DNA from: an uncultured Porphyromonas sp.
Lineage (GTDB): Bacteria > Bacteroidota > Bacteroidia > Bacteroidales > Porphyromonadaceae
Length of the DNA: 13,822 nt
Assembly: GCA_945875135.1 (NCBI GenBank)
Contig: CAMCJO010000017.1
Location: 1 to 13,822, forward strand
Direction of reading: 5' to 3'
The translations under genes were made by a program, and so were the position numbers. Under the pieces are notes generated by a model. That model saw only the letters and a program-made list of their open reading frames with translations. It made no database searches and was not told the DNA's origin. Below, piece by piece: positions 3,524 through 13,822 of the stretch (its first letter is position 1; each line of letters begins with the position of its first letter).

Positions 3524-4279
3524 TTACTGAGGAGTAGAGAGGTCTTGTAGTACGTAGGCTGCCATGTGAAGGCCAAAGAGCTGGGGCATGTAAGAGATTG
3601 TCCCGACGATGCTGCGTTTGTTCTGATCGCTGTGAGGTAGGGCACGTATAGCCTCCTCGCGCGACGGCTCGCTACTGTATACGCATGGCGTGGTAAAGAC
3701 GGCACGTGGTGCCTCTAGCTGGCGAAGCCGCTTGCGTACGAAGCGTGCCAGGGCGCAGATATGCGTCTTGCTCATCGGAGCGACGGAGACCTGCCGTGGA
3801 TCTAGCTTAGCACCCGCACCCATAGTGCTGATGATCGGGATGCCCAGCTGATGCGCAGCGAGGAGCAGTTCGCACTTAGGCGTGAGCGTATCGATGCAGT
3901 CTAGTATATAGTCGTAGTGATGTGTAGCGAGGAGCGTGGGGATGTTGTCGCCCGTGAGATAGGCCGCATGCCTCTCCACCACTATGTCTGGATTAATCCG
4001 ATGCAGTAGCTCCTCCACGACCTCCACCTTAGGACGCCCTATGGTATCTCTAAAGGCTATCACCTGGCGATTGATATTCGTCTCATCGACCTTGTCGTGA
4101 TCTACGAGCGTAAAGCGACCGATGCCAGAGCGCGCCAAGAGTTCGCACGCCTTGCTTCCCACACCGCCTAGTCCCACGATGAGGATGTGCTTGTCGGCGA
4201 GGCGTCGCAACGTCTCGCTCCCGAGGAGTAGCTCCGTACGCTCCAGCCAGTGAGGCACGCCGTCCATAGGTGTCGTCAT
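3524..4279 (-). CDS. tcdA: tRNA threonylcarbamoyladenosine dehydratase (TcdA/CsdL)
   Basis: A 251-residue E1-like (ThiF/MoeB fold) enzyme. The nucleotide-binding loop is GLGGVGS (36-42), with Asp60 at the end of strand 2 and the adenylating motif NINRQ at 68-72. D127-CID and a region with Cys199 near PCVYSSEP follow. TcdA uses ATP to cyclise t6A to ct6A at position 37 of ANN-decoding tRNAs in the cytoplasm. The length fits TcdA rather than longer MoeB or UBA proteins, and no ThiS/MoaD partner is nearby. The gene starts 9 bp after the mltG stop and ends 14 bp before the ATPase gene, so it is clearly operonic. An in-frame Met at residue 5 is an alternative start. Confidence in the family is high. 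Confidence 0.9.
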
Positions 4280-7671: not shown

Positions 7672-7867
7672 ACTAATTCTTCGCGATTGGGGGACTATTT
7701 GCGCAAAGTGTCAACTTTCCAAAAACTTTCCAGCCTTGGGCAAAAGCTAAGACGCCCTCCCCAGAGCCATGCGAATCAGCCCTCTACTCGCCACGCTTAC
7801 GACCGCCATCCATCGGCTTTCGTGTAGACGGGAGGACGCGTAGACGAAGTCATTCGTGCGGGTTGCG

Positions 7868-7898
7868 TTTGCCTGCTGGGCTAGAAAGTGTAACTTTG
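7868..7898 (+). promoter_or_regulatory. Promoter of the hsdM operon
   Basis: TTTG at 7868-7871, a spacer of exactly 19 bp, and TAACTTTG at 7891-7898 give a full match to the Bacteroidota primary-sigma consensus. Transcription should start near 7904-7908, about 20 nt before the ATG at 7928. The promoter lies inside the longer reading frame that could begin at GTG 7856. This is the main reason to place the HsdM start at 7928. Confidence 0.75.
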
Positions 7899-7927
7899 TC
7901 TGTACAAGACCGAATCAATATCACTCT

Positions 7928-9475
7928 ATGACTAGTACTAAGCAACGAGACGAGCTACACGCTGCCATCTGGGGCATTGCCAACGAAGTGCGTGGAGCTG
8001 TAGACGGCTGGGACTTCAAGCAGTTTGTCCTAGGCGCACTCTTCTACCGATTCATCAGTGAGCACTTCGCCAGCTATATGGAGGCGGGCGACCCCGATGT
8101 CACTTACGCCACGCTACCCGATGAGGATATTTCGCCCGAAGTCAAGGAGGACGCCGTCAAGACGAAGGGCTACTTCATCTACCCCAGTCAGCTCTTTGTC
8201 AACGTAACCCATGAGGCACACCGCAACCCCGACCTCAATGTGCAGCTACGGCAGATCTTTGATGCGATCGAGGGCTCTGCTGCGGGATACCCCTCAGAGG
8301 CTGACATCAAGGGGCTCTTTGCAGACTTTGACACGACGAGCAACCGCCTAGGTAACTCCGTCGAGGAGAAGAACCGTCGCCTCGCAGCCGTGCTCACTGG
8401 CGTGGCGAGCCTAGACTTTGGCGATACGGAGCAGCACGAGATAGACCTCTTTGGCGATGCCTACGAGTTCCTCATCTCCAATTATGCAGCCAATGCGGGC
8501 AAGTCGGGTGGCGAGTTCTTTACACCACAAAATGTTTCTAAGCTGATCGCCCGCCTCGCCATGCATGGACTAGATCGAGTCAATAAGATCTACGATCCCG
8601 CTTGTGGTTCTGGGTCATTGCTACTGCAGGCTAAGCGACAGTTTGACGCGCATCAGATCGAGGAGGGCTTCTTCGGGCAGGAGATCAACCACACGACCTA
8701 CAACCTAGCGAGGATGAACATGTTCCTCCATGGGATCAACTACGACAAGTTTGACATCAAGCTAGGCGACACGCTCCTCGACCCCAAGCACAACTATGAG
8801 AAGCCCTTTGATGCGATTGTCTCTAATCCGCCTTACTCGGTGAAGTGGGTAGGTGACAAAGACCCCACGCTAATCAATGATGACCGTTTCGCACCGGCAG
8901 GTGTCTTACCGCCCAATAGCAAGGCGGACTTTGCCTTTATCCTCCATGCGTTGCACTACCTCTCGGCACGTGGGCGGGCAGCTATCGTCTCCTTCCCAGG
9001 CATCTTCTACCGTGGGGGACGTGAGCAGAAGATCCGCAAGTACCTTGTCGACAATAACTTTGTGGAGACCATCATAGCGCTCCCGCCCAACCTCTTCTAC
9101 GGTACCAGCATTGCGGTAAACATACTAGTCCTCTCGAAGCACAAGGCAGACGACAAGATTCAGTTTATCGATGCCAGTGGCGAGGAGTTCTATAAGAAAG
9201 AGACAAACAATAACGTCCTCACCGAGGAGCATATCGCCCGCATCGTTCAGATATTTGCCAACAAAGAGCCCGTGGCACACGTTGCCACATCTGTGCCGTA
9301 CGCTGAGATCGTCGAAAACGACTACAACCTCTCCGTGACCAGCTACGTGGAGCCAGAGGATCAGACCGAAGAGATCGACATAGACCTCCTCCAGAGTGAG
9401 ATCGCCGAGACGGTCGCTCGTATCAACCAGCTTCGCAGCGACATCGATGCAATCGTTAAGGAGATCAGTTGCTAA
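7928..9475 (+). CDS. hsdM: Type I restriction-modification methyltransferase subunit HsdM
   Basis: A 515-residue protein starting [16 protein letters not shown]. The N-terminal helical HsdM domain spans about 5-145. The N6-adenine methyltransferase domain follows, with GGEFFTP (194-200), the S-adenosylmethionine loop DPACGSG (223-229) and catalytic NPPY (300-303). A C-terminal helix (about 485-513) probably contacts HsdS. The length is normal for the family. Two HsdM with one HsdS methylate adenine in both strands of a bipartite target, and the complex with HsdR restricts unmethylated DNA. The frame is open upstream to a GTG at 7856, but the promoter -7 box lies inside that stretch and alignment to the family begins after Met 7928. 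It is the first gene of the operon; four 9-bp repeats start immediately after its stop codon. Confidence 0.95.
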
Positions 9476-9536: not shown

Positions 9537-10253
9537 ATGAGACAGCAAGAGCCCTCAGACGCTAACGTCTTACGCACACCAGTCAAGGTCGAGGATCTAC
9601 ACTTCTACCACAAGGCTGATGCCATCTACCAGCTCACCTATCTCTTCTGTCAGCGCTTTCTCCCTCCCTATGGAGATCGCACTGTAGATCAGATGGTGCA
9701 GGCGGCACGCTCGGGCAAGCAAAACATTGTCGAGGGGATAGAGGCGGGGCGTACCTCTTCGGAGACAGAGCTGCGCCTCCTCAATGTAGCACGTAGTAGT
9801 CTCCAAGAGCTTAGAGAGGATTATGAGGACTACTTGAAGACGAGAGGCTTAACTCTCTGGACGAAGGATCACACGCGCTACCATGCGATGCTCCAATACT
9901 GTCGTACGCACAATAGCGGTGACGAGTACCTCCCCTATGCCAATCGGTGGGATGCTGAGGCGTATAGCAATGCGCTGCTCACCTTATGTCACATGACCGA
10001 CCGCATGCTCAGTAGTTACTTAGAGCATCTGGAGAAGCGGTTTGTCCACGAGGGTGGTATCAAGGAGCGTATGTATGCCGTACGCACGGGCTACCGACAG
10101 GCTCAAGACCAGCAGTTGGTCAAGCTTCAGAAGGAGCGAGACAGGCTCCAAGCCGAGGTAACTCGCCTCCAAGCCGAGGTGACGGCGGGTCACAAGGAGA
10201 TAGCCCACTTACGATCACAAATAGAGCACCTAGAGCATAGCGATGAGAGATGA
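9537..10253 (+). CDS. Four-helix-bundle suffix-type protein (S23-like) in the RM operon
   Basis: A 238-residue soluble protein with no signal or membrane segment. Residues about 22-165 resemble the four-helix-bundle family related to proteins encoded in 23S rRNA intervening sequences. The recognisable motif is QMVQAARSGKQNIVEG (52-67), followed by SETELRLLNVARSSLQELREDYEDYL (75-100). Residues about 187-234 form a charged coiled coil with a repeated LQAEVTRLQAEVT, suggesting oligomerisation or docking on a partner. Biochemical function is not known to me. Its place between hsdM and hsdS, the 61-bp gap upstream and the immediate junction with the hsdS frame suggest co-expression with the type I enzyme; a role in regulating or assembling it is inference. 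No clear ribosome binding site is present. It is flanked by inverted arrays of one 9-bp repeat. Confidence 0.75.
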   Translation: MRQQEPSDANVLRTPVKVEDLHFYHKADAIYQLTYLFCQRFLPPYGDRTVDQMVQAARSGKQNIVEGIEAGRTSSETELRLLNVARSSLQELREDYEDYLKTRGLTLWTKDHTRYHAMLQYCRTHNSGDEYLPYANRWDAEAYSNALLTLCHMTDRMLSSYLEHLEKRFVHEGGIKERMYAVRTGYRQAQDQQLVKLQKERDRLQAEVTRLQAEVTAGHKEIAHLRSQIEHLEHSDER

Positions 10254-10275
10254 CCAAATAGCCAGCCGAGGTGCT

Positions 10276-10338
10276 AGTGCTGCTAGTAACTCTAGTGCCA
10301 CTAGTAACTCTAGTGCCACTAGTGCCACTAGTGCTACT
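10276..10338 (+). repeat. Nonamer repeat array 2 (upstream of hsdS)
   Basis: Seven consecutive 9-bp units: AGTGCTGCT, AGTAACTCT, AGTGCCACT, AGTAACTCT, AGTGCCACT, AGTGCCACT, AGTGCTACT. Reverse-complemented they read AGTGGCACT, AGAGTTACT, AGCAGCACT and AGTAGCACT, the same family as array 1 (AGAGGCACT, AGGATTACT). The two arrays are thus in opposite orientation around the four-helix-bundle gene. The unit length is a multiple of three, and the array is open in the hsdS frame, where it would encode Ser-Ala-Thr and Ser-Asn-Ser repeats. AGCCGAGGTG at 10264-10273, just before the array, also occurs at 10172-10181 inside the preceding gene. Confidence 0.9.
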
Positions 10339-10356
10339 AGAAAAACAACAAATCAG

Positions 10357-11565
10357 ATGAAGTACATAGACAGACTACTACAAGGAGCCCCCGTCGAGTG
10401 GCGCCCCCTCGGTGAGGTCTTCGAGATGAGAAATGGCTACACTCCCTCAAAGTCTAATCCTGCCTACTGGGAGGGTGGAACAATCCCTTGGTTTCGGATG
10501 GAAGACTTGAGGACGAGTGGTCGCATACTAGAGGACTCTATACAGCATATCACCCCAGCGGCAGTCAAAGGCAAGGGGCTCTTCAAGGCAGGCTCTATCC
10601 TTATGGCTACAACAGCTACAATAGGAGAGCATGCTCTCCTAATTGCTGATTCGCTAGCGAATCAGCAATTCACGAATTTTGCAATTCGTGAATCGCTCAT
10701 GGGCGTGACCACGCCCATGTTTGCTTACTATTACTTCTTTCTTATCTGCGAGTGGTGCAAACGTAATGTCTATGAGAGTAGCTTCCCTTCAGTCGATATG
10801 AAAAGACTTCGAGAAGTCCGTTTCCCTATCCCGCCAGTGGTGGTGCAGGAGGAGGTGGTGCGGGTACTGGACAAGTTTACAGCGCTGGAAGCGGAGCTGG
10901 ACTGCCGCAAGCGGCAGTATGGGTACTACCGTGATGCGCTGCTCACGTTCGACCTCTCGCCCAGCGACGGGCTGTGCCACAGCCCGCTCTTCCCCGCCCC
11001 CTTTACCGTCGAGTGGCTCCCCCTCGGTGAGGTCGGTGAGTACTCACAATCTAAAGTAAAGAATTCGGAGCTATCCGAAGACTCTTTTATTGGGGTAGAC
11101 AACTTACTCCCAGATAGAAAGGGAAAGACCTCCTCAAGCTATGTCCCAACGAAAGGCCTATCTACAAGGTATCAAGTTGATGATGTTTTAATTGGTAACA
11201 TACGTCCCTACCTAAAGAAGATTTACTTGGCAGACAACAACGGAGGAGCAAGTGGCGATGTCCTAGTAGTCCACGTTACAAGTGATACTATCTCTCCGAA
11301 GTACCTTTATCAAGTACTAGCTGACGATAAATTCTTCTCCTACAATATGAGATATGCCAAAGGAGCCAAGATGCCTCGAGGTAGTAAGGACAAGATTATG
11401 TCTTATCCCATCCCCATCCCGCCACTGGAGGTGCAGGAGCGCATTGTGGAGATACTCGATAAGTTTGACACGCTGGTGAACTCGATTAGCGAGGGGCTGC
11501 CTCGTGAGATAGAGCTGCGACGCAAGCAGTACGAGTACTACCGCGATGCACTCCTCTCTTTCTAA
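10357..11565 (+). CDS. hsdS: Type I restriction-modification specificity subunit HsdS
   Basis: A 402-residue protein starting MKYIDRLLQG. It has two target-recognition domains: TRD1 (about 13-155) starts VEWRPLGEV and TRD2 (about 218-350) starts VEWLPLGEV. Each is followed by a helical conserved region (about 160-200 and 355-402) ending in YYRDALL. Each TRD reads one half of the bipartite DNA target; the helices set the spacing and bind HsdM. The frame is open back to an ATG at 10243 that overlaps the previous gene by 11 nt. That version adds 38 residues rich in Ser, Ala, Thr and Asn encoded by repeat array 2. I prefer 10357 because the conserved domain begins there, but the longer start cannot be excluded. 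TRD1 and TRD2 look more A+T-rich than the rest of the operon, as expected for exchanged recognition modules. Several perfect palindromes lie inside the gene. Confidence 0.93.
   Translation: MKYIDRLLQGAPVEWRPLGEVFEMRNGYTPSKSNPAYWEGGTIPWFRMEDLRTSGRILEDSIQHITPAAVKGKGLFKAGSILMATTATIGEHALLIADSLANQQFTNFAIRESLMGVTTPMFAYYYFFLICEWCKRNVYESSFPSVDMKRLREVRFPIPPVVVQEEVVRVLDKFTALEAELDCRKRQYGYYRDALLTFDLSPSDGLCHSPLFPAPFTVEWLPLGEVGEYSQSKVKNSELSEDSFIGVDNLLPDRKGKTSSSYVPTKGLSTRYQVDDVLIGNIRPYLKKIYLADNNGGASGDVLVVHVTSDTISPKYLYQVLADDKFFSYNMRYAKGAKMPRGSKDKIMSYPIPIPPLEVQERIVEILDKFDTLVNSISEGLPREIELRRKQYEYYRDALLSF
10391..10419 (+). repeat. hsdS internal direct repeat, copy 1
   Basis: These 29 bp encode VEWRPLGEV at the start of TRD1. 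They recur at 11006-11034 with one mismatch (G to T at the tenth base after GTC), encoding VEWLPLGEV at the start of TRD2. The copies are 615 bp apart, exactly 205 codons, so recombination between them would remove or duplicate one TRD plus conserved region in frame. Confidence 0.85.
10622..10719 (+). repeat. Four consecutive palindromes in hsdS TRD1
   Basis: Four inverted repeats follow one another without gaps longer than 4 nt. The first is a 20-bp perfect palindrome at 10622-10641 (half-site TAGGAGAGCA). The second is a 30-bp perfect palindrome at 10641-10670 (half-site AATTGCTGATTCGCT). The third has an 11-bp stem, ATTCACGAATT with AATTCGTGAAT, around a 4-nt loop at 10668-10693. The fourth has a 10-bp stem, CATGGGCGTG with CACGCCCATG, around a 2-nt loop at 10698-10719. 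They encode HsdS residues about 89-121 without breaking the frame. Confidence 0.95.
10901..10918 (+). repeat. Perfect hairpin in hsdS central conserved region
   Basis: ACTGCCGC at 10901-10908 and GCGGCAGT at 10911-10918 form an 8-bp stem with only AA between them. It lies in the codons for the RKRQY segment of the first conserved helix region. The equivalent place in the second half of the gene (around 11521) does not keep this symmetry. Confidence 0.85.
10968..10986 (+). repeat. Perfect 9-bp inverted repeat at the centre of hsdS
   Basis: CGGGCTGTG at 10968-10976 and CACAGCCCG at 10978-10986 are exact inverted copies around a single C. They lie in the codons between the first conserved region and TRD2, a linker that tolerates variation. 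It is one of several palindromes concentrated in this gene. Confidence 0.85.
11006..11034 (+). repeat. hsdS internal direct repeat, copy 2
   Basis: This is the second copy of the 29-bp sequence at 10391-10419, with one mismatch. It marks the start of TRD2 and keeps the reading frame relative to copy 1. The conserved helices downstream of each TRD are also related at the DNA level but more diverged. Confidence 0.85.
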
Positions 11566-11591: not shown

Positions 11592-13822
11592 ATGTCACAG
11601 TACAAGACGATAGCACAGTTGCCGAACTACATTGTCCTAGAGGACTACACCAAGTACGCTGCCCTTGCGGAGCCACCCGCAGGCTATCAGTCCGAGGCGG
11701 AGCTGGAGCAAGAGTTGATCAAGGACTTAAAGGGGCTGGGCTACCAGTACCGCCCAGACATACGCACGCCCGCAACGCTTCTAGCCAACCTACGGGAGCA
11801 GCTGGAGCGACTCAATGAGGTGACCTTTACCGATGAGGAGTGGCAGCGCCTTCTCAGAGAGTACCTAGACAACCCTGGTGAGGGCATCATAGATCGTACG
11901 CGCAAGGTGCAGCGCAAGTCTGAGTGGGACTTTGTCTTTGACGATGGTCGTATGCAAAACATACGGATCGTGGACAAGAAGCTCATCTCACGCAATCAGG
12001 TGCAGGTGATCAATCAGTTTGAGCAGACGGGCAGCGAGGCAAACCGCTACGATGTGACGATCCTTGTCAATGGCCTGCCGATGGTGCAGGTAGAGCTGAA
12101 GCGGCGTGGCGTGGCGATACGTGAGGCGTTTAATCAAGTGCATCGGTATAGTAAGGAGAGCTTCAACAGTGAGAACTCGCTCTACAAGTATCTGCAGATC
12201 TTCGTCATCTCCAACGGCACCGACACCCGCTACTTTGCCAATACGCTGACACGCGATAAGAACAGCTTTGACTTTACGATCAACTGGGCACTGGCAAACA
12301 ACAAGCCGATCCGCGACTTGAAGGACTTTACAGCGACCTTCTTCCAGCGCAATACGCTCCTCGAGGTACTCCTGCACTACTCGGTCCTAGACGAGAGCAA
12401 TACGCTCCTGATCATGCGCCCCTATCAGATCGCCGCCACCGAGCGACTCCTCTGGAAGATACGTAGCTCTTACCAGGCTAAGCTCTGGAGCAAGCCCGAG
12501 GGCGGAGGCTACATCTGGCATACGACCGGCTCGGGTAAGACGCTCACGAGCTTTAAGGCGGCACAGCTGGCGACGCAGATTGACTTCATTGACAAGGTCT
12601 TCTTCGTGGTAGACCGCAAGGATCTGGACTACCAGACGATGAAGGAGTACAAGCGCTTTGACGAGGAGAGTGTGACTGGCTCCAAGAGTACGGCGGGACT
12701 GAAGAAAAACATCGAGACGACGAAGGGCAAGATCATCGTCACGACGATCCAAAAGCTCAACAACCTGATCAAGAGTGAGAGCAGTCTAGCGGTCTACAAT
12801 GAGCAGGTGGTCTTTATCTTTGACGAGTGTCACCGGTCGCAGTTTGGCGAGGCGCAGCGTAACATACGACGTAAGTTCAAGCGGTACTACCAGTTTGGCT
12901 TCACCGGTACGCCCATCTTCCCTGAGAATGCGCTGGGTGCCGATACGACGGCAAGCGTCTTCGGGCAGCAGCTACACGCTTATGTGATCACCGATGCGAT
13001 ACGTGATGAGAAGGTGCTGAAGTTTAAGGTAGACTACAACACGGTACTCCCACAGGCCCAAGCTGTGGAGCAGGAGCAAGATGAGGAGAAGCTACAGAGT
13101 GCAGAGAGCAAGGCACTCTTGCTACACCCGGAGCGCATCCGTGAGGTGTCTCGTCATATCCTCAAGGTCTATCGAGACAAGACGCACCGCACACTGGGGG
13201 ATAGTATGGGCTTCAACGCTATGCTCGCCGTGAGCAGTGTAGAGGCTGCGAAGCTATACTATCAGGAGCTGACGCAGCTACAGGTTGGTGCGCCCCGTCC
13301 GCTACGGATCGCTACGATCTTTTCCTACGCCCCCAATGAGGAGCAGCGTGCTATCGGTGAGATCATGGATGAGGGCTTTGAGCCGTCGGCACTGGACTAC
13401 AGTGCTAAGGAGTTTCTATCGCAGGTGATCGAGGAGTACAACGCTGCTTTTAAGGTCAACTTTGGGGTGGATAGCGATGGCTTCCAAAACTACTATCAGG
13501 ACCTCTCGAAGCGTATGAAGGAGCGTGAGGTGGATCTGCTGATTGTGGTGGGGATGTTTCTCACGGGCTTTGATGCACCCCGTATGAATACGCTCTTTGT
13601 GGACAAGAACCTGCGCTACCATGGACTGCTGCAGGCGTTCTCCCGTACGAATCGTATCTACGATGCTACGAAGACGCTGGGCAATATCGTCTGCTTTAGA
13701 GATCTGGAGCCAGCGACGATCGAGGCCTTGAGACTCTTTGGAGATGAGAAGTCGCCCTATGAGATTCTAGAGCGGAGCTACAAGGAGTATCTGGAGGGCT
13801 TTACGGATGAGCAGACTCATCA
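11592..13822 (+). CDS. hsdR: Type I restriction enzyme subunit HsdR (3' end outside window)
   Basis: An open frame from ATG 11592 runs to the window edge, giving 743 codons; full-length HsdR is usually about 1000 residues, so the C-terminal helical part that contacts HsdM is missing. The N-terminal PD-(D/E)xK nuclease core has Asp154 and Glu168-Leu-Lys170 (VELKRRG). The superfamily 2 motor follows: Walker A TGSGKT (312-317), DECH (411-414), TGTP (438-441) and a motif VI-like QAFSRTNR late in the readable part. HsdR translocates DNA with ATP and cuts it when the HsdM/HsdS complex meets an unmethylated target. It starts 26 bp after the hsdS stop, across a short pyrimidine-rich spacer with repeated CTAAC, and has no evident Shine-Dalgarno sequence. 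No frameshift or stop is seen in the portion present. Confidence 0.95.

Follow-up and report, generated by a model that had tools for sequence, protein, structure and literature searches.

Palindromes at conserved coding positions of HsdS recognition domains and other gene families, possibly kept by replication template switching

Loci of the hsdS type are reportedly able to recombine via inverted repeats that are common to separate hsdS copies and to change HsdS in this way. The locus described here differs from these, having spacers of 0-4 nt inside one gene and no second close hsdS in the draft genome. In a search of the open-access literature (subscription papers being outside its scope), no title or abstract among the matches listed describes palindromes in hsdS, RhuM, KilA-N, ORF6N or DUF1016. 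Mitochondrial genes of Nematomorpha contain long coding palindromes, reaching 284 bp, whose distribution is scattered, with gains and losses among species; their upkeep by template switching or conversion has been suggested (PMC6649704). The palindromes of the present study are likewise perfect inverted repeats, few of them imperfect, in conserved protein-coding sequence, but unlike those of Nematomorpha they are short, occur in bacteria and plasmids, and sit at largely fixed codons of particular families (PMC6649704).

In coding genes of yeast, template switching homogenises arms and inverts short spacers, with clustered amino-acid changes. Arm homogenisation and short-spacer inversion are suggested by our data as well, whereas the yeast events concern strains of one species and the palindrome sites here are common to several phyla (PMC8604942). 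Template switching is also described as making and keeping RNA hairpins, with multibase compensatory changes and perfect stems; those are RNA genes, in contrast to the protein genes considered here (PMC8794818). PARCELs and Rickettsia palindromic elements are, like the present palindromes, in-frame protein-encoding palindromes in bacteria, but they are inserted or tandem elements, whereas here there is no insertion and the core of the palindrome called P2 below has no genomic copy (PMC2996958, PMC4316617).

The window, i.e. the whole stretch of 13,822 nt that was analyzed, is a single 13.8-kb contig from a 305-contig draft genome of an uncultured Porphyromonas sp. Its relevant features are as follows.

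163-236, tRNA gene (Rfam RF00005)
7856-9475, + strand, hsdM (PF02384 and PF12161)
9537-10253, + strand, accessory ORF between hsdM and hsdS, weakly matching 23S_rRNA_IVP (PF05635; 30.0 bits vs. a cut-off of 33.8)
10243-11565, + strand, hsdS, type I restriction-modification specificity subunit (ORF list; 440 aa as the longest frame)
10393-10890, + strand, TRD1, the stretch used in TRD comparisons (PF01420 residues 52-216 plus alignment)
10622-10641, + strand, P1, 20-bp perfect palindrome, spacer 0, TAGGAGAGCATGCTCTCCTA
10641-10670, + strand, P2 (site H2), 30-bp perfect palindrome, spacer 0, AATTGCTGATTCGCT/AGCGAATCAGCAATT, in the codons of IADSLANQQF
10668-10693, + strand, P3 (site H3), 11-bp arms, 4-nt spacer TTGC (10679-10682)
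10698-10719, + strand, P4 (site H4), 10-bp arms, 2-nt spacer AC (10708-10709)
11592-13820, + strand, hsdR, truncated by the contig end (PF04313, PF18766 and PF22679)

Pfam recognizes Methylase_S (PF01420) in hsdS as two stretches, and the closest solved chains by sequence are EcoR124II HsdS (7bst_A) and 1yf2_A. The first-pass annotation, made from the letters of the window, had reported four inverted repeats within 98 bp of TRD1, which we confirm at 10622-10719. P1-P4 tile this interval, P1 and P2 overlapping by one base and P2 and P3 by three, with 4 nt between P3 and P4; all lie within the first Methylase_S domain (PF01420 residues 52-216) and all four are mutually different. A single strand is predicted to form all four hairpins, with z of -8.2 as RNA and -9.6 as DNA and none of 200 shuffles as good. 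Phase-variable hsdS inversion was rejected as a candidate, there being no second hsdS that shares the repeats; the draft has, on a different contig, just a 30% identical match to residues 325-405. No recombinase was found near hsdS in the ORF list of the window (Pfam scans covered just four ORFs, and the contig stops where the window does).

The annotation had also held symmetry of this density to be very unlikely by chance, and this is borne out both by synonymous recodings and by the genome background. When the 38 codons at 10612-10725 were recoded 20,000 times with the codon usage of the window, the longest arm reached 12 bp vs. 15 bp in the real sequence, and at most two stems of at least 10 bp appeared (in 1/20,000) vs. 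four in reality. Four stems were reached in 0/20,000; the annotation would have been refuted had synonymous shuffling commonly produced such density, which it does not. Permuting synonymous codons within the gene gave a mean of 0.007 stems of at least 10 bp and a maximum of one (300 permutations). With background stems defined by an arm of at least 10 and a spacer of at most 5, the same genome has four elsewhere in 324 kb (20 other contigs), none within frames of at least 90 aa; genome G025, from the same genus, has 11 in 400 kb, seven of them in frames, and genome G460 has 18 in 400 kb, ten in frames including one rhuM.

TRD relatives were located through a pair of peptide patterns, and the 80 best out of 100 were retained, which is not a random sample; these 80 loci with the window and G025 gave 81 rows, L031 (one copy), L081 and L090 being dropped for indels. 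Palindromes at the P2 or P3 codons, with compensatory changes, are present in 35 of the 81 TRD regions, from several bacterial phyla, and the remaining 46, G025 included, are without P2/P3. The other result that would have refuted the annotation, relatives lacking any symmetry, was not obtained either, these 46 regions notwithstanding. The titles of the palindromic records include Bacteroidales, Bacillota, Endomicrobiia, Helicobacter (H2 only), a gammaproteobacterium (H2 only) and a Dadabacteria MAG, several of the records being MAGs for which misbinning is possible. In 79 TRDs (window included, G025 left out) the palindromes with an arm of at least 9 are placed by residue as follows: 31 at 87 (P2/H2), 24 at 96 (P3/H3), six at 105-107 and five elsewhere, the codon-permuted set having 4.0 in all. 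The sites are spaced about nine residues apart, in three steps. No other palindrome with an arm of at least 9 occurs at the P1 site in these 79 TRDs, and at the P4-like position other palindromes are found in L018, L019, L022, L026 and L030. On a TRD tree (127 columns, array columns excluded, many forks unresolved) the trait is clustered, with 9-11 state changes. The array is a position-conserved class and not a local accident.

The pairing is kept while the bases vary. Across the 35 palindromic rows, 461 of 490 H2 cells hold Watson-Crick pairs, and there are exchanges of the types CG/TA (16/17), CG/AT and GC/CG. TRDs with the peptide DSLAN use TCG for Ser in 27/27 cases and GCG for Ala in 26/27, vs. 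19/209 and 17/160 elsewhere in the same TRDs; D-S-L-A-N together with symmetry leaves a single choice at position 3 of Ser, position 3 of Ala and position 1 of Leu, which gives TCG-CTN-GCG. Where residues differ, both arms differ, e.g. D-Y-L-S-N with GATTACTTAAGTAATC. Among distant TRDs the P2-P3 stretch is very alike. Both protein and palindrome are thus kept.

An HsdS match was found in 9 of the 26 genomes of the genus that were searched. G025 carries the same TRD, second in its hsdS, 88% identical over 459 bp with no gaps; P1 is identical there (0/20 differences), and P2-P4 are absent. The differences crowd into the array, at 26 of 78 bases (10642-10719) vs. 27 of 381 in the flanks (12/249 before, 15/132 after), and third codon positions account for 18 of these 26. 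The left arm of P4 differs from G025 at 6/10 bases and the right arm at 2/10. On the tree, the window and G025 are sisters with unlike states and L015 beside them is palindromic, so that loss of the palindromes in G025 would be the simpler reading. We infer that P2 and P3 are old, inherited elements of this TRD family and that P4 was added later; of the four, P4 alone looks recent, with P1 as a possible second. The annotation's suggestion that successive inverted duplications had fixed a new TRD does not agree with the gap-free G025 alignment and the wide sharing of P2 and P3. The TRD has also swapped position within the genus, being first in the window HsdS (10393-10890) and second in G025 (L011:2191-2688).

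Three protein searches (best 120 each) gave 11 proteins with a window-type TRD among the matches listed. Their P3 spacer residues are FA in 8/11 and CK in 3/11 (P0052, P0054 and P0073, with a putatively inverted spacer), a switch that suggests spacer inversion, since TTTGCA and its reverse complement TGCAAA would encode the two. The P4 residues, again among the matches listed, are VVT in 10/11 proteins, which are near-identical, and VTT in the window; GTGGTCACG and GTGACCACG would encode these, which points to inversion of the AC spacer. Both window-type inversions are read from protein letters and would be the likely explanation of the switches. Another protein, P0121, whose record is presumably near to the genome of the window, also has VTT and begins inside P4. 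In P0092 the window-type TRD is fused to the HsdR C-terminal domain PF12008, with P in place of HA at the centre of P1; this may be a genuine fusion or a product of misassembly.

Palindromes of this kind are not confined to HsdS, which the annotation had no means of seeing. A wider scan of 487 kb around the hsdS relatives (arm at least 11, spacer at most 6) found 46 palindromes inside the TRD region and another 31 outside it, the latter count including those of L031 and L081, the dropped alignment rows, which carry palindromes there. Many of the 31 are intragenic at homologous places, in RhuM, KilA-N, DUF1016_N and another TRD. ORF6N was picked before its loci were seen, for the palindrome-like motif RSQIATS, which we take to be an ORF6N motif. 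Matches in the class were found in 38/119 genomes for RhuM, 42/99 for DUF1016_N, 23/119 for KilA-N, 46/99 for ORF6N and 88/99 for HsdM, the control. More matches existed than were taken: the family loci are the 30 (28 for KilA-N) that were given as loci, plus 40, 20 and 20 further places down the lists for ORF6N, RhuM and DUF1016, some being skipped, and the ORF is the longest central frame, which may be wrong in a few cases (e.g. L347 and L405). A score of at least 10 was reached by 14/30 RhuM, 18/30 DUF1016, 14/28 KilA-N and 24/30 ORF6N genes (70/118 in total) and in the codon-permuted nulls by 4/150, 4/150, 3/140 and 1/150, respectively (12/590); HsdM scored 0/30, with a null of 3/150.

Within each family the position is largely fixed. 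In the enlarged sets, the best palindromes of those ORFs that have one span a common alignment column in 30/31 RhuM, 14/14 KilA-N and 52/56 ORF6N genes, and DUF1016 has two main sites with 10/27 each. Amino-acid conservation is lower in the palindrome columns than in the flanks in all four families (0.33/0.50, 0.24/0.35, 0.44/0.55 and 0.41/0.54). At a score of at least 9, 37/57 ORF6N, 30/36 RhuM, 32/36 DUF1016 and 9/16 KilA-N palindromes are free of mismatches, under a scoring that charges each mismatch 2 and so favours perfect repeats. Two palindromes within one DUF1016 gene are alike (0.73 vs. 0.41 shuffled, 1/5000) and match at 0.88 or more in 7/10 genes, and in L154 and L401 the 17-nt cores of the two are exact inverted copies. 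In DUF1016 genes of plasmids, nonsynonymous changes occur in both arms as pairs (TCTC..GAGA to TGTC..GACA), and a one-sided arm change is also present (L258/L270). In eight plasmid loci, the DUF1016 palindrome is found in L259-L261, L262 has one 9-bp arm that was not placed, L257 and L258 have no palindrome with an arm of at least 8 bp, and the HsdS relatives L263 and L264 have no palindrome; in the plasmid DUF1016 genes first fetched, the site is without a palindrome in 3/6. One DUF1016 plasmid gene is represented by two records that are 100% identical.

Inversion of the spacer between the same outer arms is seen in the DNA of rhuM genes, as GAATA/TATTC (L109/L387), AAAAA/TTTTT (L114/L386, and L134 with L126 and L389) and AAATT/AATTT (L390 with L374 and L385). 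Among pairs with unlike centres, which are not independent, inversions account for 6/15 in rhuM, 1/12 in DUF1016, 1/12 in ORF6N and 0/73 in HsdS; their absence at H2 of HsdS may be due to the inverted centre often giving Gln for a conserved Leu. One-base centres are A 11 and T 8 in RhuM, C 22 and G 16 in DUF1016, and A 24, T 6 and G 1 in ORF6N, i.e. one complementary pair per family except for 1/31 in ORF6N. At synonymous centres the other base class, a class chosen after the data were seen, occurs 0 times, where own-gene codon usage leads one to expect 5.6 for RhuM (P 0.0008) and 7.8 for DUF1016 (P 4e-6).

The arms mostly retain full complementarity as their bases and the encoded amino acids vary, the two arms vary in concert, positions are largely fixed per family, and in some genes the spacer is present in both orientations between the same arms. 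On comparative sequence evidence, we give about an even chance to the explanation that these coding palindromes are kept and flipped at the DNA level, most likely by replication template switching. A polymerase at a DNA hairpin would briefly copy the opposite arm, and such a switch could repair a mismatched arm from its partner, invert the spacer, or build a new palindrome beside the old one. The left arm of P4 looks as if it had been overwritten from the right (6/10 vs. 2/10 differences from G025), and, as these sites would lie where the protein tolerates change, several adjacent residues of a DNA-recognition protein might switch in one event (FA/CK at P3, TT/VT at P4). Template switching accounts for the perfect arms, the paired changes, the inversion and the likeness of neighbouring palindromes. 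It leaves the choice of these gene families unexplained, and in its neutral form it does not predict the restricted one-base centres, which a symmetric binding site does. The few spacer inversions outside rhuM, the near-copies upstream of some ORF6N and DUF1016 genes, the 9-11 state changes in the TRD tree, the one-sided arm changes and the 3/6 plasmid DUF1016 genes without a site palindrome were also counted against it. Template switching that diversifies the TRD was one of the meanings proposed in the annotation, and it fits best in the joint arm changes, the spacer inversion in some genes and the coincidence of the array with the window/G025 difference; the interpretation in the annotation is partly supported.

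That P1-P4 are a by-product of protein sequence or codon usage, chance or an assembly artefact is hardly credible. Each palindrome is short by itself and the genome is a draft of 305 contigs, but shuffles in HsdS and the other families fail to reproduce the palindromes, the symmetry forces rare codons, and the corresponding sites are palindromic in many separate genomes and in complete plasmids; chance and codon usage as the source were rejected by the recoding, the background sample and the family nulls. Dyad-symmetric protein-binding sites, i.e. operators in the gene or promoter that are bound by the encoded or a partner protein and whose symmetry is kept by selection, are possible, though we think them unlikely. 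ORF6N, KilA-N, RhuM, DUF1016_N and HsdS are known or presumed to bind DNA, the centres keep to a single complementary class, synonymous sites included, and DUF1016 genes can hold two matching copies. Near-copies of the coding palindrome precede the ORF6N genes L308, L317 and L432, about 40-66 nt upstream of the likely Met, and the DUF1016 genes L152 and L150; less surely, they lie between divergent frames in L322 and L315 (ORF6N), before the likely starts of both, the sites L322:1379 and L315:1852 being read as upstream of both genes from opposite-strand frames. Upstream near-copies at ORF6N are as would be expected for an autoregulatory operator. Such copies reach p of at most 0.05, however, in just 3/22 DUF1016, 0/13 RhuM, 1/10 KilA-N and 3/14 ORF6N genes, and the five-base spacer inversions require an inverting event anyway. 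The palindromes P1-P4 are unlike each other, which speaks against the repeated site of one protein, and no second copy as of an intragenic operator was found: the P2 core is nowhere else in the genome at up to 2 mismatches, the P1 core recurs only twice at 2 mismatches, nothing near P1-P4 lies elsewhere within the window, and 32 palindromic hsdS loci yield one match, with 5 mismatches. Both could hold, with binding sites kept by selection and spacers flipped by hairpins.

Selection on mRNA hairpins that tune how transcripts of hsdS and the other genes are translated or degraded, an idea also put forward in the annotation for HsdS level, is kept as a rival that we consider improbable. The very stable predicted fold and the compensatory changes agree with it, but G-T pairs show no excess over A-C mismatches: H2 of HsdS has 13 GT and 10 AC, 10 of the 13 GT being at the pair whose base is shared with H3; the H3 core has 7 and 13; and the outer part of H3 has 0 and 22, of which 17 are at the base shared with H2. 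The GT/AC counts are 2/7 in ORF6N, 1/3 in RhuM, 0/1 in DUF1016 and 2/3 in KilA-N. Numbers are small throughout, and the sites are not independent of one another. At the gathering score, Rfam gives no RNA family at the array, its sole match being the tRNA gene at 163-236. Insertion into genes of a mobile palindromic coding element, of the Rickettsia palindromic element or PARCEL type, would fit palindromes in several unrelated genes and the likeness of the P2-P3 stretch in distant TRDs, but is very improbable given that the alignment to the copy without P2-P4 (G025) is gap-free, that the P2 core occurs once in the genome and the 17-mer searched for in 2/395 genomes of the phylum, and that sequences vary from gene to gene. 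This element type was rejected, as neither an insertion nor repeats elsewhere were found (gap-free alignment, single P2 core).

Replication template switching may be extended to a wider proposal that, as a whole, we regard as tentative and rather unlikely: HsdS TRDs, ORF6N, KilA-N, RhuM and DUF1016_N, DNA-recognition proteins that travel with restriction-modification loci, phages and plasmids, would have in common a means of diversification that works on the DNA. In each gene, a palindrome in a variable segment of fixed position would correct its own arms and flip its spacer through template switching at the hairpin, and one such heritable and reversible step would exchange a block of neighbouring residues in a DNA-binding domain. 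If true, segments of widespread defence and phage-type proteins would evolve by copying their own opposite strand instead of by single-base steps. Adjacent amino-acid replacements and seeming convergence there might then be driven by mutation, and it would be misleading to read them as positive selection or independent substitutions. The sites would also provide a natural, position-fixed substrate for measuring bacterial template switching, and a simple test of whether restriction enzyme specificity changes via a 4-base inversion.

In viral contigs, P3, P4 and the P2 core each had 0 exact-pattern matches. The 17-mer is present in nine viral contigs, none of them an hsdS by eye, and three of these matches are presumably in tape-measure-like frames. 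TRD relatives in viral contigs amounted to one weak locus, which was left out of the analysis, and TRD1 DNA relatives in plasmids to one weak match. The rhuM of L066 had no match in 5,426 E. coli genomes, and one DUF1016_N piece also matches HTH_ParB. The rhuM gene at L114:1303-2334 carries an in-frame 45-base palindrome with 20-bp arms, and in L071 the palindrome GTAGAGACGCAAAATTTTGCGTCTCTAC occurs four times (at 3587, 4224, 4329 and 4700).

An alternative hsdS start, MKYIDRLLQ at 10357, is found in several relatives. The long hsdS frame has, close to its 5' end at 10300-10341, imperfect tandem units CTAGTGCCA/CTAGTAACT (SNSSATSNSSATSATSAT); in the relative P0053 the tandem version is shorter, so that the length of the leader may vary.
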